This document shows, in pieces, positions 2,752 through 31,338 of a stretch of 33,430 bases of DNA. Made by a program: the position numbers and the translations under genes. The notes beneath the pieces are model-generated. The model searched no databases and was not told where the DNA came from. It was given only the letters and a program-made list of their open reading frames with translations. Source of the DNA: a virus. Position 1 is the first letter of the stretch. Each line of letters opens with the position of its first letter. The DNA is taken from positions 1 to 33,430 of IMG/VR virus record IMGVR_UViG_3300037587_000423; one strand, written 5' to 3'.

Positions 2752-2957
2752 CACAGCCCCCACATCCGCAGCCACTTGCGCTGTGCGTTCTGGTACATAG
2801 CCATCTGGTTTTCCGGCTTCATAAGCAGTTTGGTAACTGCCATCCGATAAGCTAACCCAACGCCTAGAGGGCTTAAATTCTTCGGGTTGCTCCAGTCGAT
2901 CGCCGTTGCCTTCTCGAGCTGGGATTCAACCTCTGCTCTAAATTCGCTGATGTTCAT
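2751..2957 (-). CDS. Small hypothetical protein (68 aa)
   Basis: Unrecognised. The product (MNISEFRAEVESQLEKATAI at the start) is mostly helical, with a Met-rich, basic end (NAQRKWLRMWGL). It is packed between genes with 1-3 base overlaps on both sides, which supports it as part of the leftward operon. Confidence 0.65.
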   Translation of the reverse strand: MNISEFRAEVESQLEKATAIDWSNPKNLSPLGVGLAYRMAVTKLLMKPENQMAMYQNAQRKWLRMWGL

Positions 2958-3394
2958 TATTTTGACTCCTGCTCTGCGGCCTGCTTGCGTAGATCAGCGG
3001 CCACAGTCTCGAAGTGGTCACCTAACTCCTCGAATGTCATTTCTTTACCATAGACATGCGGCTCTGCGCCCATGTCATAGAATCGATCTGACAGCATTTT
3101 CATTATATCGGCATCGTGAAGCAGGAGAGAGGCTGCGGGGGCTTCGTTGATAATGTCACATACCGCCCATTTTAATCCGTACAGTTCATCTTTGTTTTGC
3201 AGGTTCGGAGCGCAGTCTTTAAGAACCCGACTCAGCCGCTCAACCCTTGCCGCCAGCTCGTCGCGCTCGGCTTCTATGGACCGACGACCATCCTTCTCTT
3301 TGATTAATGCTGAGTGCATCAGGTTATAGGCCGCAGCCAGATCGCCGCGCTCTTGCTCAAGAGTCTCGATTACTTTTTTGCATTCGCATGTCAT
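2957..3394 (-). CDS. Coiled-coil phage hypothetical protein (145 aa)
   Basis: Residues 5-60 form a charged heptad-like coiled coil (ERDELAARVERLSRVL). The C-terminal half, from PAASLLLHDADIMKML to DHFETVAADLRKQA, resembles the C-terminus of the 221-residue protein at 13156-13821 (HDAALLERIADKYQSIGAVP). The two are probably distant paralogs. Such proteins are common in phage small-gene clusters; function unknown. The ribosome binding site GGGGAAA precedes the ATG at 3394. Confidence 0.7.
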   Translation of the reverse strand: MTCECKKVIETLEQERGDLAAAYNLMHSALIKEKDGRRSIEAERDELAARVERLSRVLKDCAPNLQNKDELYGLKWAVCDIINEAPAASLLLHDADIMKMLSDRFYDMGAEPHVYGKEMTFEELGDHFETVAADLRKQAAEQESK

Positions 3395-3404
3395 ATTGTT
3401 TCCC

Positions 3405-3488
3405 CTATCCCGTAACCATAAAGAACATCACCACAAAAGGACCGGCCACCAGAGCGACCGATGCCACGAAACTAATAGCCGCTTTCAT
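3405..3488 (-). CDS. Very small membrane protein (27 aa)
   Basis: The frame ATG(3488) to TAG(3405) encodes a single hydrophobic helix, MKAAISFVASVALVAGPFVV followed by MFFMVTG, with a Lys at the N-terminus. It overlaps the end of the preceding gene and lies 10 bases before the next. The ribosome binding site is weak (GAAGAG). It could be a holin or regulatory membrane peptide, given the DUF5675 gene a few genes downstream, but nothing proves this. Confidence 0.5.
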   Translation of the reverse strand: MKAAISFVASVALVAGPFVVMFFMVTG

Positions 3489-3717
3489 TGGTCTTCTCTT
3501 CGAACACCGCCAGCTCAAGGTCTTCAATGCTCAGTAGCTCTGAATAATCGGCCTCAGTGCAATCGCGGGTGATGCTCATTACTTCAAACTCAACCTCTCC
3601 ATCATCGCCCAGGTCTTGCTCAAGGCCATCAGGCGTGTGGTAGTAGGTCATGGGTGTGGCTGGCGTGAACGAGATCAGATTGATGTCGTATATCCAGCCG
3701 TTTTTGATGATTTCCAT
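3472..3717 (-). CDS. Small acidic hypothetical protein (81 aa)
   Basis: The start at 3717 (MEIIKNGWIYDINLISF) is supported by GGAGAGA about 6 bases upstream. The product is acidic (DGLEQDLGDDGEVEFEV; LLSIEDLELAVFEE) and looks like a small alpha/beta domain. Unrecognised. A weak promoter-like TTGACA (minus strand, 3766-3771) with a poor -10 lies just after the stop of the minor head protein gene, upstream of this gene. Confidence 0.65.
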   Translation of the reverse strand: MEIIKNGWIYDINLISFTPATPMTYYHTPDGLEQDLGDDGEVEFEVMSITRDCTEADYSELLSIEDLELAVFEEKTNESGY

Positions 3718-3775
3718 GACTCTCTCCGTGGTTGTTTCATACAGAGTAGAGCAGCCATGAATTACTGTCAAGCGT

Positions 3776-5641
3776 TTATCTTGAGGGGAAGAAGGACTTG
3801 CCTTCCTTTTTGACTTTGGCAACAAAGGCGGGATTTTCAGGGTTGCCTGATCTGTCTGTAAGAACTTCCACAGTGCTACATCTGCAATTACTTGCTATTA
3901 TGCCATTAGCAACCATTAACCCGCTGACTTCCTGGAGATCATAAACATGACCAGCGTAAAAAACAGAGCGAATGTCAACGACCTTATCGAACGATACAAG
4001 GCCGGCGAGTCCGTCAACAGCATCGCCAAGAGCCTTGGGGTCTGCAACAGAACCATCAGCGACTGGTTCCATGACAGCGGATTCAGGTGCGCTCAATTCA
4101 CCATGAAAGACAGGTTTGACTTGCCGGGCCTTCATGCCCAGCACGCAGCAGGAAAATCTATTCTTCAGATCAGCAACGAAACCGGAGTATCCAGAATAAC
4201 GCTCAATCGATGGTTTGACAAAGCAGGGCTTGTCTACAGAGGAAAGAGCGCGGCGTGCCAAAAGAGGGCTGACAAGATGACGCCGCAGGAGCGAAAATCC
4301 ATTGCCAGCAAAGCTCAAGAGGCTAGGCGCGGACAGGTTGATTCCGGCGACGTTAAGCGGAAAAGGGCCTCCGCCAGGGTGGAGAATAGAATCGGACTTT
4401 ACGAACGAGAGATCATGCAGGGTCTTAGAGACAGAGGAGTTGGCTGCGACATCCAATGGCCGTTCGACATCTACAATATTGACGTATTCATCCATTCCAG
4501 CCGCGTCGCCATGGAAGTCTATTCCCACCACCCTGGCAAGGCTCGGATGACCGATCTCCACAAGAGAGCAAAACACATGCTCGATAGTGGTATCAGCATG
4601 ATCGTCGTCCAGGTCACTTACCCCAGCAAGATTTTTCACCTCGGTCCCGTATGCGATAAGATCGTCGCTTTTCATGATCTGTGCAGCCGGGATAAGTCCG
4701 CGACCGGTCAATATGGGGTGGTTCGGGGTAACGGTGAGATTCCGGCCACCAGCAGTCACGATATTGATAACGTCGCCAGAGTAATGCGCTTTTGATCCTG
4801 CTATAAAGCGCCCTCTGACCTTGGTGTCAGGCAGATAGCAATTTATCGCATTGCCATCCTTCTGATACCACTCCTCCTGGTCGGTCGTGGTGTGCAGTGT
4901 GCCATGCCTGGCCGCATGAGTTCTCCTGGTGGTGGGCAGCAGGGCAGATAGATGCAGCTCACGAGTAAACACTCCCAGATCATCCCTGGCACTGTCGGAC
5001 TCCTCCCACTTGGCCCGGCGATGAGCCATGTTCACTTCTGTCCTTGCTATCCTCTCAGCCCTGGACTTTGCAACGCCGAACCGCTGGCGAATATCCCGAG
5101 AGATTGTGCGAGGGCTCTGCCCGGATGCCATTCCCTCACCAAGCACCCTGGCCAGGTCTGCCCGGGTGTCGCCGGCAAACCCCACCATCGTTTCAAATGA
5201 CCGGGCCTGAATGAATTGCAGGCGGCTACGGTATGCCGGGGAGCTGAGTACCTGGACAATAGACCGGTTGTAATCGTCTGATATGCCGCCTAGGTTAATG
5301 ACGGCCTCACCGGTGCCGAGCTGGTAAGCGTCCTCAATGGCCTGGTTCAGGAAGTAGTCAGGGCTTCGATTCTCAAGGATGAACTGCTCAATAATCGACT
5401 CGATAAATTCTGATGTCTGAGCGATCAGGTTGGCGTCGAGCTCATAGATATACCGAATCTCCCGGTTAACCACGGCGCCGGTCTCTGCATCGACTATGCG
5501 AAACGGGACGGAATTGAATCTGGCAAGAACGAGCCGCTGCGCCTGAAGCAGCCGCAGCTTGATTACCTTGTCAGTGCGACGAAGGATCCGCCCTGTATTG
5601 CTCGGATTTTTCTTGTTGCGGGGGAGTATGGGGTTAGCCAT
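3776..5641 (-). CDS. Minor head protein, phage Mu F-like (head morphogenesis), interrupted by an intein
   Basis: A 621-residue precursor. Extein residues 1-267 plus 586-621 form a normal-length (about 303 aa) MuF-type head morphogenesis protein: an N-terminal helical part, RAERIARTEVNMAHRRA at about 194-210, and the conserved tail motif KDGNAIN-CRCSTVEV, which is split by the intein exactly before its first Cys. MuF proteins sit at the portal vertex and are needed for head assembly. The intein (268-585) begins CYLPDTKV and ends GIIASN with Cys586 as the +1 nucleophile. The ATG at 5641 overlaps the portal stop (TAATG). The unspliced protein would be disrupted in its most conserved motif, so splicing should be required. 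An endonuclease gene is encoded antisense inside the intein. Confidence 0.9.
   Translation of the reverse strand: MANPILPRNKKNPSNTGRILRRTDKVIKLRLLQAQRLVLARFNSVPFRIVDAETGAVVNREIRYIYELDANLIAQTSEFIESIIEQFILENRSPDYFLNQAIEDAYQLGTGEAVINLGGISDDYNRSIVQVLSSPAYRSRLQFIQARSFETMVGFAGDTRADLARVLGEGMASGQSPRTISRDIRQRFGVAKSRAERIARTEVNMAHRRAKWEESDSARDDLGVFTRELHLSALLPTTRRTHAARHGTLHTTTDQEEWYQKDGNAINCYLPDTKVRGRFIAGSKAHYSGDVINIVTAGGRNLTVTPNHPILTGRGLIPAAQIMKSDDLIAYGTEVKNLAGVSDLDDDHADTTIEHVFCSLVEIGHPSLARVVGIDFHGDAAGMDEYVNIVDVERPLDVAANSSVSKTLHDLSFVKSDSILHPGGGPFPLNVAGINLSAPSLLSFAGNGFSLLRRHLVSPLLARRALSSVDKPCFVKPSIERYSGYSGFVADLKNRFSCCVLGMKARQVKPVFHGELSAPESAVMEPVADGSVADPKALGDAVDGLAGLVSFDKVVDIRSVFYAGHVYDLQEVSGLMVANGIIASNCRCSTVEVLTDRSGNPENPAFVAKVKKEGKSFFPSR
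3887..4840 (-). mobile_element. Intein (318 codons) in the MuF minor head protein gene
   Basis: Precursor residues 268-585. Block A is Cys268 with YLPDTKVRG. Block B is LTVTPNHPIL, with the T305-x-x-H308 pair expected for N-terminal splicing. Block F is VYDLQEVSG (Asp568), followed by MVANGIIASN. Asn585 is the terminal Asn and Cys586 the +1 residue. The usual penultimate His is Ser584, a known variation that often slows splicing. No LAGLIDADG or HNH motif is visible on this strand in the central 200 residues, where a mini-intein needs nothing. Instead the opposite strand carries a homing-endonuclease gene at 3947-4795, covering intein residues 16-298. Confidence 0.9.
3947..4795 (+). CDS. Homing endonuclease, Vsr/PD-(D/E)XK-like with two N-terminal helix-turn-helix units, encoded antisense within the intein
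   Basis: 282 residues. Two HTH-like units are visible (about 8-46, with SVNSIAKSLGVCNRTISDWF; about 62-96, with ILQISNETGVSRITLNRWF). A basic linker follows (TPQERKSIASKAQEARRG). The nuclease-like domain is at about 148-232: E153/E155, YNIDV with D179, VAMEVYSHH with E190 and H194/H195, then D203 and R207, and a hydrophobic strand ISMIVVQV. This order fits Vsr-like homing endonucleases (EDxHD group). The ATG at 3947 has GGAG with a 9-base spacing. Its codons are exactly opposite the intein codons, and start, stop and ribosome binding site all lie inside the intein. It presumably cuts intein-less MuF genes to spread the intein; this role is inferred. Confidence 0.8.
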   Translation: MTSVKNRANVNDLIERYKAGESVNSIAKSLGVCNRTISDWFHDSGFRCAQFTMKDRFDLPGLHAQHAAGKSILQISNETGVSRITLNRWFDKAGLVYRGKSAACQKRADKMTPQERKSIASKAQEARRGQVDSGDVKRKRASARVENRIGLYEREIMQGLRDRGVGCDIQWPFDIYNIDVFIHSSRVAMEVYSHHPGKARMTDLHKRAKHMLDSGISMIVVQVTYPSKIFHLGPVCDKIVAFHDLCSRDKSATGQYGVVRGNGEIPATSSHDIDNVARVMRF

Positions 5642-7060: not shown

Positions 7061-7630
7061 CTATCGATCTTGTGGCTTCAGGCTTCCGTGACCCTCTGCA
7101 AAGCCATGATGTATAGAAGCCTTATCTCTTGCCAATGCTGCGTCACATTTTCTTTGAAACCTGCCAAGGTGCTTTGCTCGCCCGTCTACCATAATGCGCG
7201 CCACCCATTTTCCACGATCCAAGTAAACACCTGTGATACCAGATGTGTTGTTTTTGCTCAAAGTCTCATTTCTGTGGTTTTCTTGGTGGGTTATGTCCCG
7301 TAGATTATTTATCCAGTTGTTGTGCCTGACTTGGTCTCTGTGATCTACTTCAAGACTCGGCCACTCGCCATAATGCAGAAGCCAGGCTATACGGTGGCCC
7401 CGGTACAGAACTCCTTTCATATTCAGCATTATGTACCCGCTGTCCTTGCTCAATGACCCCGCTATTTTACCAGCAAATTTAGTATTGAACAGCTTCGATC
7501 CCATTGATGCTGGCTGCCGGTGGCGCCATGTCAAAGAACCAGTGTCAGGATCGTAATCAAGGAGAGTCGCAGCCAATTCGTAAGGAAGCGCGGCTTCCTT
7601 ACGCAGAGCGGCAGCAGATTTGGATTTCAT
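7061..7630 (-). CDS. HNH homing endonuclease, free-standing (189 aa)
   Basis: Layout of the phage HNH/AP2-like group: a DYDPDTGSLTWRHR strand segment (25-38), GHRIAWLLHYGEW, the HNH core VDHRDQVRHNNWINNLR (D96, H97, N104, N109), an ENHRN linker, then the DNA-binding segment SGITGVYLDRGKWVARI...HLGRF. It lies between the large terminase and portal genes, where head operons normally have no gene, and does not interrupt either. It has its own upstream leader with an extended -10 promoter and a large hairpin (7683-7753). It is probably a selfish gene that cuts near its own insertion point in phages lacking it. Confidence 0.88.
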   Translation of the reverse strand: MKSKSAAALRKEAALPYELAATLLDYDPDTGSLTWRHRQPASMGSKLFNTKFAGKIAGSLSKDSGYIMLNMKGVLYRGHRIAWLLHYGEWPSLEVDHRDQVRHNNWINNLRDITHQENHRNETLSKNNTSGITGVYLDRGKWVARIMVDGRAKHLGRFQRKCDAALARDKASIHHGFAEGHGSLKPQDR

Positions 7631-7799: not shown

Positions 7800-9398
7800 C
7801 TACCTGTAGGCTCTGGCTTGCTGTCTTGTCGATAATAACATATTTACGACAGACTGCCCTGGGCGCGTGAGCATGTTCTCGACCGCATCCATCATCGTAT
7901 CTACTTGATCGTCGTGCTTATGGCTGTCGTCAGCAGTGAATTGAGCGCATTCAGTCACGAAATCCATAACGAACGACTCACCAATTGGCAAAAGCACGTT
8001 GCCCATTTTTATCTGTGGCGCTGCGTCCATAGCCCTAGTCAGCTTGTTCTGGCCGCTGCCGCGACGAACGGCAGTTATCGGCAGAGGGATTTGCCTGCCA
8101 CATTCTTGAATTAGACCGCTTCCTGAGCTGGCGTCCTCAACAAGCACGCTACGCAAAATTCCATGATTACCAGTTTTATTGAGATCCCAGTGCTTACTGA
8201 TGAAGTTAAGAAATGCAGTTCTCAGCTCGGGCGCTTCCAGCTTGTCCCTAAATACATCCACCAGATAGATTCGGCCTTGCCAAAACCCCCAGCATGAGAA
8301 AACTGAATAATCGTTGTGCTCGGCCGTTTTCTGCGCGGTATCACAGCATATTATCCTGTATTCATATGTTATGGGACGAGGATCGCACCCCTCCCCTTCA
8401 CCATACCAGCCGAACCAGTCGGGATTGAATATCTGGCCGCCTAGTGCGATCGGTTCTTGTAGATATTGGCTGCTGAATGTATAGAGGTTTTTCTCCCTCA
8501 ACTCTATCAGCTGGTTTATGTCTTCCATTTCTGGCCAATAAGACCAATAACCATCAATCTTCTCTGAGTACCTTACGCTTTCCCAGCACTGGTCGCGAAA
8601 TCTCTCATCGAGGCTTTCGATGTATTCCTCATTGATCAGAGCGGGGATTTTGATGTGCTTGAAGGCTAGACCCATGCCTCCGCTGAGCATGAACCCTGAT
8701 GAGTCCTCTCTATGCAGTCTTTGCTGTATCAACCCTATTGGCGTCGGGTTGTCTTTTGACTTATCACCCCTGCGAGATCGCACGGTGTCGACAAGAATCC
8801 TGTGCTGCCGCTCTCTCTTTGTTGTGGAGAATTGATCCTCCGGCTTATCAAAGTCATCAAGCATGACGGCGCCGCTAAATCCTGGGCCAGGGAAACCACC
8901 GCGGCCGCCCGTCAACCTACCCCCAGCAGGGGCGCTTACCACTTCAAATATCGTCTTTCCCTTGCTGTCGGCCAACTGCCATTCTTCCGACATATCTGAT
9001 TTAAAAGTGCTTGGCCACAGGTATTGCCACTCTGGCGACTTGATCATATCTCTTGTTCGGCGTGAGTTACGAGTAACCAGGCTTGCGGCGTAAGACACGT
9101 TCAAGAATCTGCCACGGCCGGGGGTCTTAATCAGAGCGTAGGCCGGCAAAGCTATGCTCATAAGCTCTGTTTTAGTGCCGCCGGGAGGAATATTAATGAT
9201 GAAGTTGCCAAGACGGCCCGCAATGAGTTCGTCGGCGTAATAGCCTATCATCCGGTGGTGCCAGTTTATCAACAACTTATCGCCCTGCATAAGCTGGAAC
9301 CAGATTCGCGCAAATGTCAGAAAATTGTGCTCTGACAGAACCTTGATAGCTTGGCGCCTAGATTCGTCCAGTTCATCCCACTCTAGAATATCACTCAT
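7800..9398 (-). CDS. Terminase large subunit
   Basis: 532 residues, full length for the family. The ATPase part has an atypical Walker A-like loop at 71-78 (PPGGTKTE), a Walker B at 177-182 (AVMLDD, followed by FDKPED), and RGGFPGPGFSG before it. The RNase H-like nuclease domain has D353 (IICCDTAQK), the VLVEDASSG segment (E421/D422) and DDQVDTMMDA (496-505). This motor translocates DNA through the portal and cuts the concatemer. The start ATG at 9398 overlaps the stop of the HNH gene upstream (ATGA). The small subunit gene is unusually far away, at 14727-15119. Confidence 0.92.
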   Translation of the reverse strand: MSDILEWDELDESRRQAIKVLSEHNFLTFARIWFQLMQGDKLLINWHHRMIGYYADELIAGRLGNFIINIPPGGTKTELMSIALPAYALIKTPGRGRFLNVSYAASLVTRNSRRTRDMIKSPEWQYLWPSTFKSDMSEEWQLADSKGKTIFEVVSAPAGGRLTGGRGGFPGPGFSGAVMLDDFDKPEDQFSTTKRERQHRILVDTVRSRRGDKSKDNPTPIGLIQQRLHREDSSGFMLSGGMGLAFKHIKIPALINEEYIESLDERFRDQCWESVRYSEKIDGYWSYWPEMEDINQLIELREKNLYTFSSQYLQEPIALGGQIFNPDWFGWYGEGEGCDPRPITYEYRIICCDTAQKTAEHNDYSVFSCWGFWQGRIYLVDVFRDKLEAPELRTAFLNFISKHWDLNKTGNHGILRSVLVEDASSGSGLIQECGRQIPLPITAVRRGSGQNKLTRAMDAAPQIKMGNVLLPIGESFVMDFVTECAQFTADDSHKHDDQVDTMMDAVENMLTRPGQSVVNMLLSTRQQARAYR

Positions 9399-10219
9399 TT
9401 CGGCTTGCCGTGGCCAGGGTAAAACCCAAACTCTTTGTTTGCTGCATCTCTCGCCATCACTGCTGACTCTAAGGAATCAAACCGCCCGAGTTGCTTAGAT
9501 TTGCCATTTATTTCGATTACAGATCTCCATTTCCCGCGAGAACTGTCCCAGCTAACTCCATTGTGACCGCTTTTATTATCCGATCTTATGGATATGTTTC
9601 TGCAGTTCTCTTGGCGATCAACAATGCGCAAATTAGACCATCTATTGTCTGCTCGTCGCCCGTTCTTGTGGTCTATCTCATCAGATGGCCAGCTTCCAGT
9701 CATTATCAGCCATGCTACCCTGTGCGCTCTGAATGTCTTTCCATCTACGTTTACGAATCGATACCCAGATTCGGCAACGTGCCCAGCTTTTTCACCTACA
9801 AATTTCTGATTAAACGCAGTGTCTGATGGCTTTCTGGTTATTCGCTCCTTGTATATGAACTCTCCGGTTCCCGGGTTGTAATCAAAGCAAGAAACTATCC
9901 TTTCTGGAGCAAGATCGGCCGAGCCATGGGAGCGATTATATTGGGACAGATTTTCCGCCCTGTTGTCGGACTTGTCGCCGTTGAGATGAACAATAATGTC
10001 TATTGGCAGCTCACCAGTGATAGCAAGCCACGCTAGATTGTGAGCCCTAAAGACCTTCCCTGATAAGCTTATTACGCAGTGCCCGCGAGTGACAACTGTG
10101 CCAGCAACGGAGCCAGCCTTATGACTGCCATGCTTCCAAAGAAAGACCCCTGTTTCAGGATCATAATCTAAGAAGGACAGGGTTTTCTGGTATGAGGATA
10201 TATCTGCGGATTTTGGCAT
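9395..10219 (-). CDS. HNH homing endonuclease with internally duplicated HNH module (274 aa)
   Basis: The start chosen is the ATG at 10219 (MPKSADISSYQK) with GGAG 7 bases upstream; 28 further in-frame codons upstream lack a ribosome binding site. Module 1 (15-95) has LDYDPETGVFLWKH, GKVFRAHNLAWLAITGE and VHLNGDKSDNRAENL. Module 2 (111-198) has FDYNPGTGEFIYKE, GKTFRAHRVAWLIMTGS and IDHKNGRRADNRWSNL. Only the second is followed by the AP2-like DNA-binding tail (SGHNGVSWDSSRGKW...LGRF). A tandem duplication within the gene is the simplest explanation. Its TGA overlaps the terminase ATG, so it is co-translated with an essential late gene and may affect terminase output. Confidence 0.87.
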   Translation of the reverse strand: MPKSADISSYQKTLSFLDYDPETGVFLWKHGSHKAGSVAGTVVTRGHCVISLSGKVFRAHNLAWLAITGELPIDIIVHLNGDKSDNRAENLSQYNRSHGSADLAPERIVSCFDYNPGTGEFIYKERITRKPSDTAFNQKFVGEKAGHVAESGYRFVNVDGKTFRAHRVAWLIMTGSWPSDEIDHKNGRRADNRWSNLRIVDRQENCRNISIRSDNKSGHNGVSWDSSRGKWRSVIEINGKSKQLGRFDSLESAVMARDAANKEFGFYPGHGKPK

Positions 10220-10266
10220 GACGGGCTCCGATTGGTTGATCCTTGGCCAGATAACCGGAAGAACTC

Positions 10267-10286
10267 GGCGGGTGATCAAGCCCGCC
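10267..10286 (-). terminator. Possible hairpin terminator
   Basis: GGCGGG and CCCGCC pair around an eight-base loop between the small membrane gene and the HNH gene. The following tract on the minus strand is only weakly T-rich (GAGTTCTTCC), so termination is uncertain. Confidence 0.35.
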
Positions 10287-10315
10287 TCATTCCAGTTTCC
10301 CAACCACAGGAGAGC

Positions 10316-25176: not shown

Positions 25177-27714
25177 TCACATCGCCGCTATGATAAAGCA
25201 AAGCAGTTCTTCATAACGGATGCTGTATTGCTCCCCTGCCGCCTTGTAAAACTGGACGACATCGCCGCTCTTCTCATCAACAATCTCAAGCTCTTCATCC
25301 CACTCGTCATAGCAGAACAGACCATATTTGTGAGCGTCAAGGCCATGAGACTCAAAGATAGCCTTTACTGTCTGCGCGCCGATCCCGGTATGCGTCCTGG
25401 CTGCGTCACCTTTTTCTTCAATGGACGTATTCAGCCTGTAGGTTTTGAGAGCCGCTTTCAATTCTAGCGCTACCACCTTCTCAATATTATCCAGAGACTG
25501 TAAATCTGACTTTGTGCGCTCATCTGATGTAACTGTAAACGCTACCTGAGTATTACCACCTGACCAAGGTAGCGATGCCGATCCGCAAAGAATGCTGTTA
25601 GCTACGCCGGGGGTTACTTCCCCGGGTTTTACCTCAAGCGTCAGAACCCCTGTAACCTCTGTTGTCGTTACCGCCGTAAAAATCCTCGTCCGTGTTGGGC
25701 ATCGGTACGACGAAGACCCGCCTATCTGAAGTAGATTCCCGCCACCCGTAGACAGTTGCTGTAGCGATAGAATCTCTAGCCCAGCGTCGATGTGTTTTTT
25801 GAGCAGCCGCCCTGCCGTAGCTCCTCCTGATCGATTGCCGTAACGGAGGTAATCAACGCCAATTGACGTTGTAGTAGCTGACCACGTTCCTGATTTGCTT
25901 GCAAAGTAGGTTATAAATCCTTCATCCACAGACGTCGAACCAACCGTGATAATCACAGTTTCGTTGTTAGCATTTTTCACCGTAACCAATGATGCTGTTG
26001 GAATAGAATCTATTCCGGTGATCGCGGTCAGCGTTACAGCAGATGAATACCAACTAACACTTGGTATTTGCATATCTACCATGAAGTCAAGCAAATCTGA
26101 CAGTGCTGTAAACTCTACTCCGGTGAATGGGTTGTATATTCCACCGTCAACACCACGCGGATAGATGCCAAGAGACAGTCGCTTCAGATCAAAAGGCACG
26201 TAGGTAGATGCAATATCTGTGTAATCAACGCCTGAAGCGTCATCCTCTTTGAATATGATGATCCCGTCAGTTGGCGCATTAACATTGCCAGGCCTCAAGG
26301 AGATAAATAGATGTCTCAGGCTTCCGTCTGGATGTGCTGCTAATCCTTCACTCTCCGTCCGCTCGATAGTGAAGCCAGCGTCAGAAAGTGAGGTCAGAAA
26401 GCTATCTGCCTGAACCGCGCCATACTTGATCAAAGATCCTTCATAGGAGCATCGCGCTACACCAAAGTCTGAAACCGCGTCAGAAGTTGCCCCATCTAAA
26501 GCAGGAATGTAGCTACCCCCAAGCCCGAATAGAACATCCCCATCTTTGAGCAATACCCCTTGCGTCTTGGGTATAAAAGGAAATGTTGTATTTGATGAAT
26601 CTTGAAACCCTACAATCGACTTAGATACAAAAAACTCACCGGTTTTATTGAAATCCTCGTCGTAAATATTCCACTTGGTCCGTGAATTCTCTACGCCTAG
26701 ATCAGCGAAATCTTGCTCGATGATCCACTTTTCATCACCGAAAGAATACTGAAGACCGACCGCTGTGATACCAACATCTGAGCCGATAACTATATCCGCA
26801 GTAGTAGGAAGGGTTGTAATATCATACTTAAAAAGAGCTGAACCGGATCTGTTGTATAAGAACCTGGAAGCGCCTTCGTTTCTGACTACCGCAGATTCTC
26901 CGCCAGTTGCAACACCGAACCATGATGTCTGCGTTCCAGTGGAGTCATATACAACGATGATCGAGAATACAGGACTCTGATCAGGCGCATACTTGATGAA
27001 GGTGTTTCCAGCGTCGTCATAGCTGAAGCCTTGCGGAAACAGAAAGGTGGCACCTGGAGAAGTAGCTAAAGCTGTAGCGTAGCCAATAAACTCTAGCGGA
27101 AACTCGTCAACCACGCTCTTGCGATAAACAAAATCTGTAATCTTGGCGGGTATTCGAGCTGCGCTAAGGCCGTTCCCAAGAGTTACAACCCTATTCCCGT
27201 CTGCAGTCTGCGCTGCCGTAGCTAGGAATTCACCGCCCTCTCCATCACCGGGTGAATCCAACCCCTGTACGGTCAAGGTCATTCCTATTATTATATTAAC
27301 TATCCCTGCATCTATGGACAGGGGGTTAATTGCTGTCATGTCTGCCACTGTAGCGAATAGAGTGCCGTACCTTAGATCACCCTGCGATTCAATGACGCCT
27401 TGATAAACACGCCAATTAGCAATATCCCCGGCAAAAGTTGCCCCAGAAGTATGCGCAGTCACCGCGATATAAAAAATACCAGAATCAGTCACCAAATCTT
27501 TAACTTGATAACTTGTAGCTGTTACCCATGCGCCTCGATCAGTAACAGCTGCGATCGATTCGATAATCCGATCTATCGACTGAATCCCTTTCCCTGTGCG
27601 CGTGGTTACGACAGCGCTCGGGCCATTAACAATAGAATCAAGTTTTGCCGCATTGTCCTGGGCAACATCAAATCTGTCATTAGGTACTGTAAATTGTGAT
27701 AGATCAGTAGCCAT
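25177..27714 (-). CDS. Tail fibre / receptor-binding protein with C-terminal S74 intramolecular chaperone
   Basis: 845 residues. The N-terminal region includes an attachment part, a helical stretch and GAWVTATSYQVKDLVTD, which resembles small carbohydrate-binding tail modules. A long beta-rich middle (about 140-640) looks propeller- or lectin-like. The last 116 residues (from 730) start SDERTKSDLQSLDNI, the autocleavage motif of peptidase S74 chaperones, in which the Ser of SDxRxK is the nucleophile, followed by GIGAQTVKAIFESHG and a helical end. The chaperone trimerises the fibre and is then released. The ATG overlaps the stop of the tail-tip gene (TAATG). Confidence 0.85.
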   Translation of the reverse strand: MATDLSQFTVPNDRFDVAQDNAAKLDSIVNGPSAVVTTRTGKGIQSIDRIIESIAAVTDRGAWVTATSYQVKDLVTDSGIFYIAVTAHTSGATFAGDIANWRVYQGVIESQGDLRYGTLFATVADMTAINPLSIDAGIVNIIIGMTLTVQGLDSPGDGEGGEFLATAAQTADGNRVVTLGNGLSAARIPAKITDFVYRKSVVDEFPLEFIGYATALATSPGATFLFPQGFSYDDAGNTFIKYAPDQSPVFSIIVVYDSTGTQTSWFGVATGGESAVVRNEGASRFLYNRSGSALFKYDITTLPTTADIVIGSDVGITAVGLQYSFGDEKWIIEQDFADLGVENSRTKWNIYDEDFNKTGEFFVSKSIVGFQDSSNTTFPFIPKTQGVLLKDGDVLFGLGGSYIPALDGATSDAVSDFGVARCSYEGSLIKYGAVQADSFLTSLSDAGFTIERTESEGLAAHPDGSLRHLFISLRPGNVNAPTDGIIIFKEDDASGVDYTDIASTYVPFDLKRLSLGIYPRGVDGGIYNPFTGVEFTALSDLLDFMVDMQIPSVSWYSSAVTLTAITGIDSIPTASLVTVKNANNETVIITVGSTSVDEGFITYFASKSGTWSATTTSIGVDYLRYGNRSGGATAGRLLKKHIDAGLEILSLQQLSTGGGNLLQIGGSSSYRCPTRTRIFTAVTTTEVTGVLTLEVKPGEVTPGVANSILCGSASLPWSGGNTQVAFTVTSDERTKSDLQSLDNIEKVVALELKAALKTYRLNTSIEEKGDAARTHTGIGAQTVKAIFESHGLDAHKYGLFCYDEWDEELEIVDEKSGDVVQFYKAAGEQYSIRYEELLCFIIAAM

Positions 27715-30431
27715 TATAAAATCCCATCCTTTTCATAAATTCGTTCATCATATTGAGATAATTCTATTGTAACACGACCGTCTGCGCCGGGCTTTTTGGT
27801 GATAACAGTCCAGTCGGACGCATTCACATCATCAAGAACACCGAGAAGGTACCGGCTGCCGGCCTGTATTGTTGATCCGTCTGCAACTATGCCCGACCCT
27901 GCGAAAGTGGCCGTGAATTGCTTTTGTCCAGTTACTGTGGCTGCTACGGGCCCGAGCACGGCGCCCTGAGAGTCGGTTATTACCGCGAAAATGGTTCCCG
28001 CTGCCAGCTCGTCAAGGCGCTCGCTTGTATCGAATGTGGTGCCGTTGATCGCTCTGATCTCGCCCTCACTTATATCGCCATCGAAGATGTCGACCCATCC
28101 AACCCGGTCGCCTATATCAACCAGCATGCCATCAGATAGAACTTTGTCAGAAACAGTTCGGCGCTGCCTGAGTATTTTCCTCACTTCCAGGTTTGCCCTG
28201 TCGGTTGCCTGCAAGACCGTCCTGCACCCGGCTAGGTCAATTTTATGCGGCCTGGCGCCTATGGACCCCTCAACTATGGTTTCCCCAACAGAGTCAATCT
28301 TGCGCTTAATCTCGGCCCTTTTGCCGGTCACTGGATCAGTGTACCGGAGAGCGACGCTGTCAAAATCTTTCGGGCGTTGCAGCTTGTAGTTCTGTTTCTG
28401 ATTGTCGCCGCTGGCGATGTTCCGCCGGTTAAACAGCGCGCTCCTAGCTGTCTTTGTCTCATCCCTAAAGAATCTCCACACCTGCCCATCACGATACACG
28501 CCGACCCTGGCCGCGTTGCATATGGTCTGCACTCTCGACCCCAGGCTGATGTCCTTGTCATCGAAGGAATAATCAAACCGCCCAAGCTCCTGATCTGATA
28601 GCCCGTCTTGAATTTCATACAGAGTAGCGAGGTCGATTTCATCAAGAGGCCGGCCGGCAGATACGTGAAGCGAATACAGGACAGCATCAGCGAATTTCCG
28701 CGTATCCGTCAGTGTTGGATTAAACCCACCACCAGCCGTCCAGGTAGGTAATTTCCTTGTGCAATCGATGTTTATTTTTCGTTGAGATGAGCTGATAGCG
28801 AAGCTCGTCGCGACAGTGTTAACGTCAACAGTAGTGATGTCACCGAACCCGGCGCCGGAATACGAAGCGACCGCAACAGCATCCTCCCACTTAACCTGGT
28901 CCAGCGCTGATCCTGCGAATTTATTCGTGGTACGCCTGGCTCTGACCCTATAAAACCCGCCCGAAACTGGAACTGTGAATTTCTCCGTCTTGAATTGCGC
29001 GTCAAAGGTTCCGCCTGTAAATGAATAGTTTTCCGTATCGATAATACCCGTCGGGGTGCCACCTGAGTCTGTCTCTTGGATGTCAGCCTCGATATTGACT
29101 GTGATCACGTTTCCGTTCTGGTCGCGTATTCCTCGCGGCATCTGGAAATGGAACCACACTTGCTCTGCAGTGTCGGCCAGCTGGAACCATCCCACGTTTG
29201 CGTCAGGATCCTGCCCGAATCTGACCATCGTCGCAGACGCGTCATCTTCATCAATGACAGTTTCAGTGACAGTGAACCGAATCGCGCTTAAAGGAGTGCC
29301 GTCTATGGTCGGCAGGAACGTGTCCGGGCCATGAGTGAGAACATTAAAATCACCGTTGTTTGATGCCGTGTCAGCAATGGTGAATTTATTCAGGGAATCA
29401 ATGCTCAGGTTTTCCTCAACATTCAGGTCGAACGAATACACGACCATTGGCGCCGTTGTCACCCTGGTAAATGTCGCTGTCACCGGCCCCTCTGTAGTCA
29501 CTCCGCTGGTCACATCAAGTTGCACCTGGCCCGCGTTGTCGGTGATCGATGCGATAGTGAACGTAGCGTTGTTGCTGACCGTTCCAGTGACCACCAGCTG
29601 ATCACCTGGCGACAGATCCAGGTTATAGGCAAAAGCGTTGTCCGGTATGTCAATCAGATTTGTTGATGTGAACTGAACATTGGCCGGGCTGGCAGCGTCG
29701 AGCTTGTCTTTGAATACAAGCCTCCCGACGCTTGAAACTGTAGGGTCATCAGGCGCGAGCAGCTCCTGTCCGTTGATGTCGTTTGTCTCTCTGCCAATCT
29801 GAAGGTCTGGCGGAATGTCGCCAGGGTCGCGAACGGTAGCCGATGAGCCAGGGATTCCAGAAAGAAGAGATTTGCCGCTCTTGATTTCGTTTATCAGGAA
29901 CTCACCAACGCCAAGGCCGAAAACTTCGCGCACCTGTTTTGTGTTGGCAACGTATTCGAACAGTGATGGCTGCAACAGATCAGGGAATGAAATTATCCTC
30001 CCGAATATTTCAGGCATTGCCTGGTAAGGCCGGGCGATGTTTGTCTGTCCGCTTAGAGAGTTGTTTGGGCTGTCTTTCCCTGTCTGCCCCTGAGAGTTTG
30101 GGATTGATGGCGTAGGGATCAAAATCACAGTGGCGACAGCGATAACAGCTATGGCAATCAGGGCAATGGTGAGGGGGTCAAATCCGCTTGGCCGGTGAAC
30201 GATGTGAAGAACATCACCATCTTCAAGGATTCTGCTGCAATCCTGCTGAGAAATCACCGTTGATTCATGGACGCTGCCAAGATGCAGATCAGTCTCTATC
30301 CCGTGGAACGGCAGCTCCGCCTCGCTCTTTTTGGGATAGCCTCTTTCTAGATGGCTGATTATTGGATGCCCGGAATCAACCGGGATAATCTGCTTATCCG
30401 TTGGGGTGTGGATTACAATCGTTGCCGACAT
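27714..30431 (-). CDS. Tail tip / host-specificity protein, lambda J-like (about 905 aa)
   Basis: The start chosen is the ATG at 30431 (MSATIVIHTPTDKQIIPVD); longer in-frame extensions lie inside the NlpC gene. After a short N-terminal fold there is a hydrophobic stretch (LTIALIAIAVIAVATVILIP, about 87-106), then PEIFGRIISFPDL, FGLGVGEFLINEIKSG and LIDIPDNAF. The C-terminal half includes REVRKILRQRRT-like and WTVITKKPGADGRVTIELSQ segments typical of J-like central tail proteins. It forms the tail-tip hub to which the fibre (next gene) attaches. The gene order NlpC-J-fibre supports the call. The exact start is uncertain because its ribosome binding site is weak. Confidence 0.8.
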   Translation of the reverse strand: MSATIVIHTPTDKQIIPVDSGHPIISHLERGYPKKSEAELPFHGIETDLHLGSVHESTVISQQDCSRILEDGDVLHIVHRPSGFDPLTIALIAIAVIAVATVILIPTPSIPNSQGQTGKDSPNNSLSGQTNIARPYQAMPEIFGRIISFPDLLQPSLFEYVANTKQVREVFGLGVGEFLINEIKSGKSLLSGIPGSSATVRDPGDIPPDLQIGRETNDINGQELLAPDDPTVSSVGRLVFKDKLDAASPANVQFTSTNLIDIPDNAFAYNLDLSPGDQLVVTGTVSNNATFTIASITDNAGQVQLDVTSGVTTEGPVTATFTRVTTAPMVVYSFDLNVEENLSIDSLNKFTIADTASNNGDFNVLTHGPDTFLPTIDGTPLSAIRFTVTETVIDEDDASATMVRFGQDPDANVGWFQLADTAEQVWFHFQMPRGIRDQNGNVITVNIEADIQETDSGGTPTGIIDTENYSFTGGTFDAQFKTEKFTVPVSGGFYRVRARRTTNKFAGSALDQVKWEDAVAVASYSGAGFGDITTVDVNTVATSFAISSSQRKINIDCTRKLPTWTAGGGFNPTLTDTRKFADAVLYSLHVSAGRPLDEIDLATLYEIQDGLSDQELGRFDYSFDDKDISLGSRVQTICNAARVGVYRDGQVWRFFRDETKTARSALFNRRNIASGDNQKQNYKLQRPKDFDSVALRYTDPVTGKRAEIKRKIDSVGETIVEGSIGARPHKIDLAGCRTVLQATDRANLEVRKILRQRRTVSDKVLSDGMLVDIGDRVGWVDIFDGDISEGEIRAINGTTFDTSERLDELAAGTIFAVITDSQGAVLGPVAATVTGQKQFTATFAGSGIVADGSTIQAGSRYLLGVLDDVNASDWTVITKKPGADGRVTIELSQYDERIYEKDGIL

Positions 30432-31338
30432 ATCGCCAATATTCCAAACGTGAATAGAGTTTTTCAAGCGTGCGGATACTATGATAACCCACGCTTCCCG
30501 GCTTGTCGTCTGACCCCAGACAATGCAGGCATCGACCGCCAGTAATAACCCCGACATGGGCCGGTATATCGCCATGGAATGCCGCGAAAACGAGCCCGTC
30601 CGATGGCCCCGGCTCTTTCCTCCACCAGCCTGATTCGGCCTGCTGGAAAAACCCGTCTGCTATCGGTGTGGACCCGTCAGAGTAGCCCCGGACTATCGGG
30701 ATCTGTATGTCATGTACCAAGTGGAAATATAGCGTAACTACAGACCAGCAATCCATGCCGTCAAATGTAGCACCTCTGTTTACCCAAGGGACGCCAACAG
30801 ACATATTTACAAATTCAGAAGGGGTCAGCGTCGAGTTTAAAACAGAGAACATGCCAAATATTCTTGCGGCGCTAACATCGTAAGCCTTAGACGCATCTAA
30901 TTTTGTAGAGAACAGCCCTATATGAATCAGCTTGTTTTTGTGCCTTATTTGAGAAGACCACTTGTTGCCTTGAGCGTAAACGCCCTTGTATCCGCTTTTA
31001 TTTTTACGCCGGTTTGCCCTGCAGTTTGCTATGTTTTTCGAATGATCGCAGGCTCTTAGGTTTTCGGCCCTATTATTCATGGTGTCTCCGTCAGCGTGGT
31101 CTATGTTTTCAGGAATACATCCGTTGTATATATAATACGCCAGCCTGTGAGCATAGACGCCTTTGCGCTTAAAGCCGATTCTTATGTACTGCATTCCGAC
31201 AGAATTGATTTTTATACCGCCGGCACGACTCCCTTTCTTGAATGGGCCTCTGTCCACTTTCCAGTAAGGGACTCCATCACAGAATTCAACCATTGTAGAC
31301 AGTTCAGGGATAAATCGATCATTAGATCGTGGAACCAT
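30394..31338 (-). CDS. HNH endonuclease fused in frame to an NlpC/P60 tail peptidase
   Basis: 314 residues. Residues 1-168 are a whole phage HNH/AP2-like endonuclease: VYAHRLAYYIYNGCIPENID, HADGDTMNNRAENLR (H81, N88/N89, N93), SGYKGVYAQGNKWSSQIR and an ending AARIFGMFSVLN that in free-standing relatives is followed by a stop. From about 175 (FVNMSVGVPWVNRG) a complete NlpC/P60 peptidase begins, with Cys197 (GMDCWS), His261 (PAHVGVI) and His272. Such peptidases (lambda K-like) cut peptidoglycan during tail-tip assembly or entry. No ribosome binding site precedes an internal start at 179, so a true fusion is likely. CAGGAGG precedes the ATG at 31338. Confidence 0.85.
   Translation of the reverse strand: MVPRSNDRFIPELSTMVEFCDGVPYWKVDRGPFKKGSRAGGIKINSVGMQYIRIGFKRKGVYAHRLAYYIYNGCIPENIDHADGDTMNNRAENLRACDHSKNIANCRANRRKNKSGYKGVYAQGNKWSSQIRHKNKLIHIGLFSTKLDASKAYDVSAARIFGMFSVLNSTLTPSEFVNMSVGVPWVNRGATFDGMDCWSVVTLYFHLVHDIQIPIVRGYSDGSTPIADGFFQQAESGWWRKEPGPSDGLVFAAFHGDIPAHVGVITGGRCLHCLGSDDKPGSVGYHSIRTLEKLYSRLEYWRYVGNDCNPHPNG

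Follow-up and report, generated by a model that had tools for sequence, protein, structure and literature searches.

A probable mobile intein in a phage head gene with its homing endonuclease encoded on the intein's antisense strand

In a phage DNA stretch of 33,430 nucleotides (IMG/VR virus record IMGVR_UViG_3300037587_000423, hereafter the window), a minor head protein gene is interrupted by an intein whose opposite strand carries a second gene. The computed reading frames, selection, domains, folds, translation start and distribution make it highly probable that this is a mobile intein with its homing endonuclease on the intein's own antisense strand. Both inteins and homing endonucleases are textbook examples of mobile elements, and the endonuclease is normally fused in frame.

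The head gene and its intein

On the minus strand of the window, an ORF of 621 amino acid residues (5641..3776) encodes a MuF/SPP1-gp7-like minor head protein, which matched Pfam Phage_Mu_F (5.7e-9) and PHROG 758, head morphogenesis (2.4e-84). This gene (3776..5641) hosts an intein of 318 residues (3887..4840, minus strand), whose splice blocks were aligned over 21 phage inteins. The junctions read KDGNAIN|CYLPDTKV...VANGIIASN|CRCSTVEV, with Cys1 at 4840, the terminal Ser-Asn ending with Asn318 at 3887 and Cys+1 at 3884-3886, and the insertion point is the conserved C-R-C motif of MuF. Block B (T-P-N-H, residues 38-41, 4718..4729), block F (H-V-Y-D-L-Q, residues 298-303, 3932..3949) and block G (N-G-I-I-A-S-N, 3887..3907, followed by Cys+1) were all located on the minus strand. 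Thus, the MuF-borne intein that the sequence-only reading had placed at 3887-4840, with its Cys1, TxxH, terminal Asn and Cys+1, was found as described. Among 112 related loci with both intein blocks in a single open frame, residue 1 was Cys in 110 and T38 was present in 111, and both H41 and the terminal N318 were invariant.

The Pfam Intein_splicing match of the window intein (1.5e-5) was below Pfam's cutoff; the same domain was found in 106 of the 112 related sense inteins and was essentially the only Pfam domain there. In AlphaFold2 predictions for the 112 sense inteins, the splicing ends had pLDDT values above 95, and the intein model matched the Mtu RecA intein in Foldseek (prob 1.00). 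The intein model also contained an ordered element at residues 83-145. Residues 151-263 (4052..4390, minus strand), which face the helix-turn-helix (HTH) half of the antisense protein, form a loop predicted to be disordered (pLDDT below 50; sense z about 0). Given that this loop is predicted to be disordered and is nearly without sense selection, the splicing protein tolerates a loop sequence dictated by another gene. Judging from these features, the intein would be removed from the MuF precursor by protein splicing.

The antisense gene

The plus strand of the intein contains a candidate homing-endonuclease gene (HEG) of 282 codons (3947..4795), which lies entirely within the intein and exactly codon-opposite to it. 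Its ATG start, its stop and a GGAG Shine-Dalgarno (SD) core (3934..3937) are all inside the intein, as previously noted, and the CAT codon of the block F His is the complement of the ATG. The product has two HTH units, at residues 7-43 (3965..4075) and 59-92 (4121..4222), both supported by AlphaFold2 helices and by HTH_23, of which a second stretch covers the second unit (HTH_23 match 9e-9, above Pfam's cutoff). An EDxHD/Vsr-like nuclease domain follows at residues 151-248 (4397..4690).

The single HEG sequence gave no significant Pfam match for the nuclease core (MTES_1575, E=0.17). The profile of the HEG family matched PDB 3r3p, I-Bth0305I (1.8e-6, and 5.9e-6 in another comparison), as well as 3hrl (2e-5), and 88 of the 124 family members matched REase_MTES_1575. 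Among the 124 sequences, Y176, N177, D179 and E190 were invariant and E153 was nearly so. The EDxHD signature could be followed in part: its E and D are clear, its H and final D have no assigned residue, and in 3r3p, possibly a mutant construct, D179 aligns with a residue other than Asp. The AlphaFold2 model of the antisense protein had a mean pLDDT of 90.9. Foldseek ranked I-Bth0305I first for this model (prob 1.00, TM 0.62 of target), with a weak best E-value of 0.012, and 3hrl and Escherichia coli Vsr were also near the top. The proposed protein with two HTHs and a Vsr/PD-(D/E)XK-type core was therefore borne out by HTH_23, family profile and predicted fold, and by its sequence and model the gene looks like one for a homing endonuclease of the I-Bth0305I/Vsr (EDxHD) type.

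The lengths of the related inteins were bimodal, ranging from 259 to 299 and from 314 to 335 residues with centres near 272 and 322, and one outlier had 372 residues. The shorter inteins lacked the first HTH unit in an alignment of 19 sequences, and HEGs of the family carry one or two such units; two broad alignments were too divergent to be searched for patterns. Opposite the block F His, ATG, GTG or TTG was found in 95 of the 112 relatives. An SD core at proper spacing preceded it in 81 of these 95, compared with 11% for other in-frame ATG/GTG codons used as the control. A promoter scan of the plus strand upstream of the HEG gave no convincing candidate.

Selection on the two strands

The codon usage of this phage predicts 9.8 antisense stops opposite the HEG of the window and none was seen (P about 2e-5), more openness than chance would give. 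The predicted avoidance of TTA/CTA/TCA-type codons in the intein also held across the 112 loci, in which 744 stop-making codons were expected over the antisense span and 15 were seen. For the sense frame, 577 stop-making codons were expected and none was seen. Because the loci were recruited by the antisense protein, the antisense openness is partly a recruitment effect; the sense openness is free of this effect, save that the 112 loci were chosen with both blocks in one open frame. A free-standing relative of the HEG (L068, described below) contained six of the codons that were avoided elsewhere.

Substitutions were compared by codon position on both strands. Between the window and L005, an 80% relative, the changes in the middle of the intein fell at sense positions 1, 2 and 3 in 86, 21 and 32 cases, respectively (P=7e-7). 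They are thus concentrated at sense position 1, which is the wobble base of the antisense frame, and the identity of the middle was 58% for the sense and 80% for the antisense protein. The splicing blocks of the same pair had the opposite pattern. Over the 112 inteins, the antisense protein was better conserved in 146 of 178 middle columns (P=5e-20), whereas the sense protein was better conserved in 68 of 73 end columns (P=4e-12). A per-column codon-shuffling test resolved three zones: the splicing blocks were sense-selected, residues 127-283 were, with few exceptions, selected for the antisense protein only, and residues 86-126 were selected for both. The splicing ends are under sense selection and the middle is under antisense selection, and both the substitutions and the codon entropy switch strand where one domain gives way to the next.

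The doubly coded element

Intein residues 86-126 (IExVFxxL...DFHGD...VxVV; 4463..4585, minus strand) lie opposite the nuclease core, are ordered in the AlphaFold2 model and have wobble bases locked for both strands. The DFHGD motif at 4505-4519 (minus strand) faces the catalytic VAxE of the nuclease. At this site, the Ala188 codon was GCC in 106 of 108 sequences (46% pooled) and the next Val codon was GTG in 92 of 94 (21% pooled). Given that the wobble bases of both strands are locked at DFHGD/VAxE, the active-site bases are constrained by both proteins. Searches with residues 86-126 identified no Pfam domain and no PDB profile match. The simplest reading of this constraint is selection at the protein level, which is preferred since so many positions are affected; a signal in the DNA or RNA may be responsible instead. 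On balance, we favor the interpretation that this is a widespread and stable architecture, in which opposite strands of one selfish element encode two unrelated proteins, one written over the other, and the bases of VAxE double as the independently selected DFHGD motif.

Family and distribution

A tblastn search with the plus-strand protein identified 94 phage records, with a head gene opposite in every region opened. The hosts of the phages in which the antisense protein is conserved include Gordonia, Vibrio, Pseudomonas, Klebsiella and Salmonella. Searches of IMG/VR and GTDB genomes guided by a profile yielded 178 related loci, of which about 123 were distinct at less than 90% identity after removal of short ones. 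The antisense-in-intein layout was found in 177 of the 178, and the N- and C-blocks of the intein flanked the antisense ORF in nearly all. In an automatic open-frame test, the opposite strand was open across the whole match, in the same register, in 175 of 178 loci. Two of the three exceptions (L137 and L198) have this layout too, in frameshifted form, so many stops in the antisense frame are not a feature of homologous inteins.

The remaining locus, L068, is a homolog outside an antisense context. It encodes 321 residues (2878-3843) with a zinc-ribbon-like N-terminus, an HTH and the nuclease. The gene adjoins and opposes an intein-less MuF gene and ends 10 bases inside it, near the homologous site. 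L068 is a plausible picture of the ancestor. The searches found no further free-standing copies. Among 369 bacterial genomes of one class, a full-length match was found only in the seed genome and the other matches were partial; among 198 genomes of one bacterial family, the seed genome again had the only full-length match. One partial bacterial match that was examined whole proved to be DUF559-like, and its N-terminal part was different. Given that full-length matches in these two sets were restricted to the seed genome, this is a phage family and not a chromosomal one.

The host gene is not always MuF. At L122 (1699-4344, minus strand), the intein is in an XkdF-like head maturation protease and that of L176 is in a portal fusion, both with the antisense HEG. 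Hosts at L104, L118, L119 and L108 include VG15-type and minor-capsid-2-type head proteins, and the intein family spans several head-gene classes. The PHROG 15127 "head protein" profile matches through positions of about 240-590, which look like this intein. Because this profile matches different head genes bearing the intein, it may mislead annotation. In the public phage records inspected, the head gene was annotated and the full antisense gene was not, probably because gene callers discard complete overlaps. In the sense protein of L139, the sequence HSFIASDVPVHN|SQTC, about 30 residues upstream of the intein, resembles the C-terminus of another intein, distinct from the first and located in the same head gene. 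The phage of the window has three more HNH endonuclease genes (7061-7630, 9395-10303 and 30394-31338, the last on the minus strand), of which the last overlaps a tail gene (27714-30575) by about 180 bases.

Mobility

Among 500 records of Jerseyvirus and relatives with a MuF match, 70 covered 80% or more of the gene that bears the intein, and most of the sampled remaining Jerseyvirus-type records matched MuF as two flanks only. The empty allele in Jerseyvirus KE16, compared with VSe101, was exact and in frame. The identities between these two phages were 46-50 of 50 farther off and 38-39 of 50 beside the site, a drop that would be as expected of co-conversion with limited tracts. In Gordonia phages, the exteins were 94-96% identical and the inteins (316 and 275 residues) about 34% identical. 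For Snoke and VSe101, the HEGs were 95% identical and the N-exteins 75%; spurious 100% rows in this table of extein and HEG identities, which came from short end-gap alignments, were disregarded. Mobility is indicated by alleles that lack the intein and by host genes that are nearly identical yet carry divergent inteins. L179 (401-1228) had a stop codon in the nuclease domain and an intact intein frame, a combination that would fit a homing cycle. L180 (3001-3828), like L179, combines an intact intein frame with an internal stop in the antisense nuclease, and both are natural HEG-broken alleles.

In the cycle that we propose, translation of the minus strand would yield the MuF head protein with the intein in it, and the intein would then splice itself out. 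The plus strand would be transcribed separately and, from its own start codon and SD site opposite block F, would give a separate HTH-HTH-EDxHD nuclease. MuF alleles that lack the intein may be cut by this nuclease at the conserved HPN|CRC-type site, and repair of the break would then transfer the element in full, both its splicing domain and its endonuclease.

Discussion

The codon-opposite register favors long open frames, and GC-rich members have chance-open stretches in their exteins too, so the plus-strand ORF might be a chance or mirror ORF whose apparent conservation only reflects that of the intein. Such an ORF would not be expected to draw the substitutions of the middle to the antisense wobble base, where the antisense protein is the better conserved one, nor to fold at a pLDDT of 90.9 into a known nuclease fold, nor to be preceded by SD sites in 85% of the relatives that have a start codon there. 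In addition, the L068 relative stands alone without an intein. The substitution positions and this free-standing gene led us to reject the chance explanation, whose probability we regard as negligible. We hold it equally improbable that the mobility domain is in the sense frame of the intein's middle, with the antisense frame as its shadow. The conserved and predicted ordered element at residues 86-126 speaks for this reading, but it has no PDB profile match, Pfam recognized no nuclease domain in the 112 sense inteins, and most of the middle is disordered and without sense selection. A sense-frame endonuclease was rejected on these grounds.

A somewhat less remote alternative, still unlikely in our judgment, is that the antisense gene is real and does not serve homing, its product being a DNA-binding regulator, a nuclease of defence or competition, or a domesticated immobile enzyme. 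HTH repeats alone match regulators and transposases, the Vsr/DUF559-like fold occurs in non-homing enzymes too, and the cleavage activity of the HEG is a prediction from sequence and model. However, the nearest structure is that of a homing endonuclease, the Y-N-x-D and E residues are invariant in 124 sequences, and the gene lies within an intein that has a conserved insertion site, is polymorphic for presence and absence, and occurs as divergent alleles in hosts that are nearly identical. A mobile intein with an antisense homing endonuclease is thus our preferred reading.

The arrangement had been put forward as undescribed. No antisense endonuclease in an intein was found in the literature searched, and the claim stands to that extent, but a preprint by Gosselin et al., the authors of the ShiLan work, reportedly deals with non-canonical actinobacteriophage inteins and may overlap. 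Some nuclear group I introns of protists carry antisense homing-endonuclease genes. Similar to these introns, the intein has an endonuclease gene inside a splicing element and opposite the host-gene strand. Different from the introns, whose RNA is non-coding so that no double coding arises, both strands of the intein encode protein. Similar to canonical HEG inteins of the LAGLIDADG type, such as PI-PfuI and TliVMA, the intein possesses blocks A, B, F and G, interrupts an important gene at a conserved motif and shows presence/absence polymorphism. Different from them, its endonuclease is not fused in frame, and the middle of the sense protein consists of a disordered loop and one small ordered element.

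The nearest system in the literature searched is the ShiLan element, an HNH endonuclease with zinc fingers encoded in a shifted frame of the same strand, without a detectable ribosome binding site or a splicing domain (PMC11855218). Similar to ShiLan, a homing-type endonuclease is hidden in another frame of a phage insertion that is open in the host frame, the distribution is disjunct and the host-frame product is predicted to be poorly structured. Different from ShiLan, the gene described here is antisense, of the EDxHD type and preceded by an SD site, in an insertion recognizable as an intein. EDxHD enzymes are a recognized homing-endonuclease family with HTH-bearing extended DNA-binding regions, in which I-Bth0305I is classed with group I intron endonucleases (PMC3943268). 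The antisense protein resembles I-Bth0305I (PDB 3r3p) in its catalytic domain, by profile and fold, and in having HTHs in an extended DNA-binding region. Unlike I-Bth0305I, whose PDB entry is named as a mobile intron protein, its gene is nested antisense in an intein. The parts belong to known families and would together work like a homing intein, and it is their arrangement that differs from canonical inteins and from ShiLan.

Two genes share the same bases on opposite strands in phages of very different hosts, which makes this family a clear example, in nature, of overlapping sense and antisense proteins for which selection can be read on either strand. The expression of such genes and the conflict between them are testable in cultured phages, such as Gordonia phage Vivi2 and Salmonella phage VSe101. 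A further implication is that other inteins and insertions should have their antisense strands screened. If the interpretation of the doubly coded element is true, intein and nuclease are locked together at their most constrained point, where drift in the one would cost the other.
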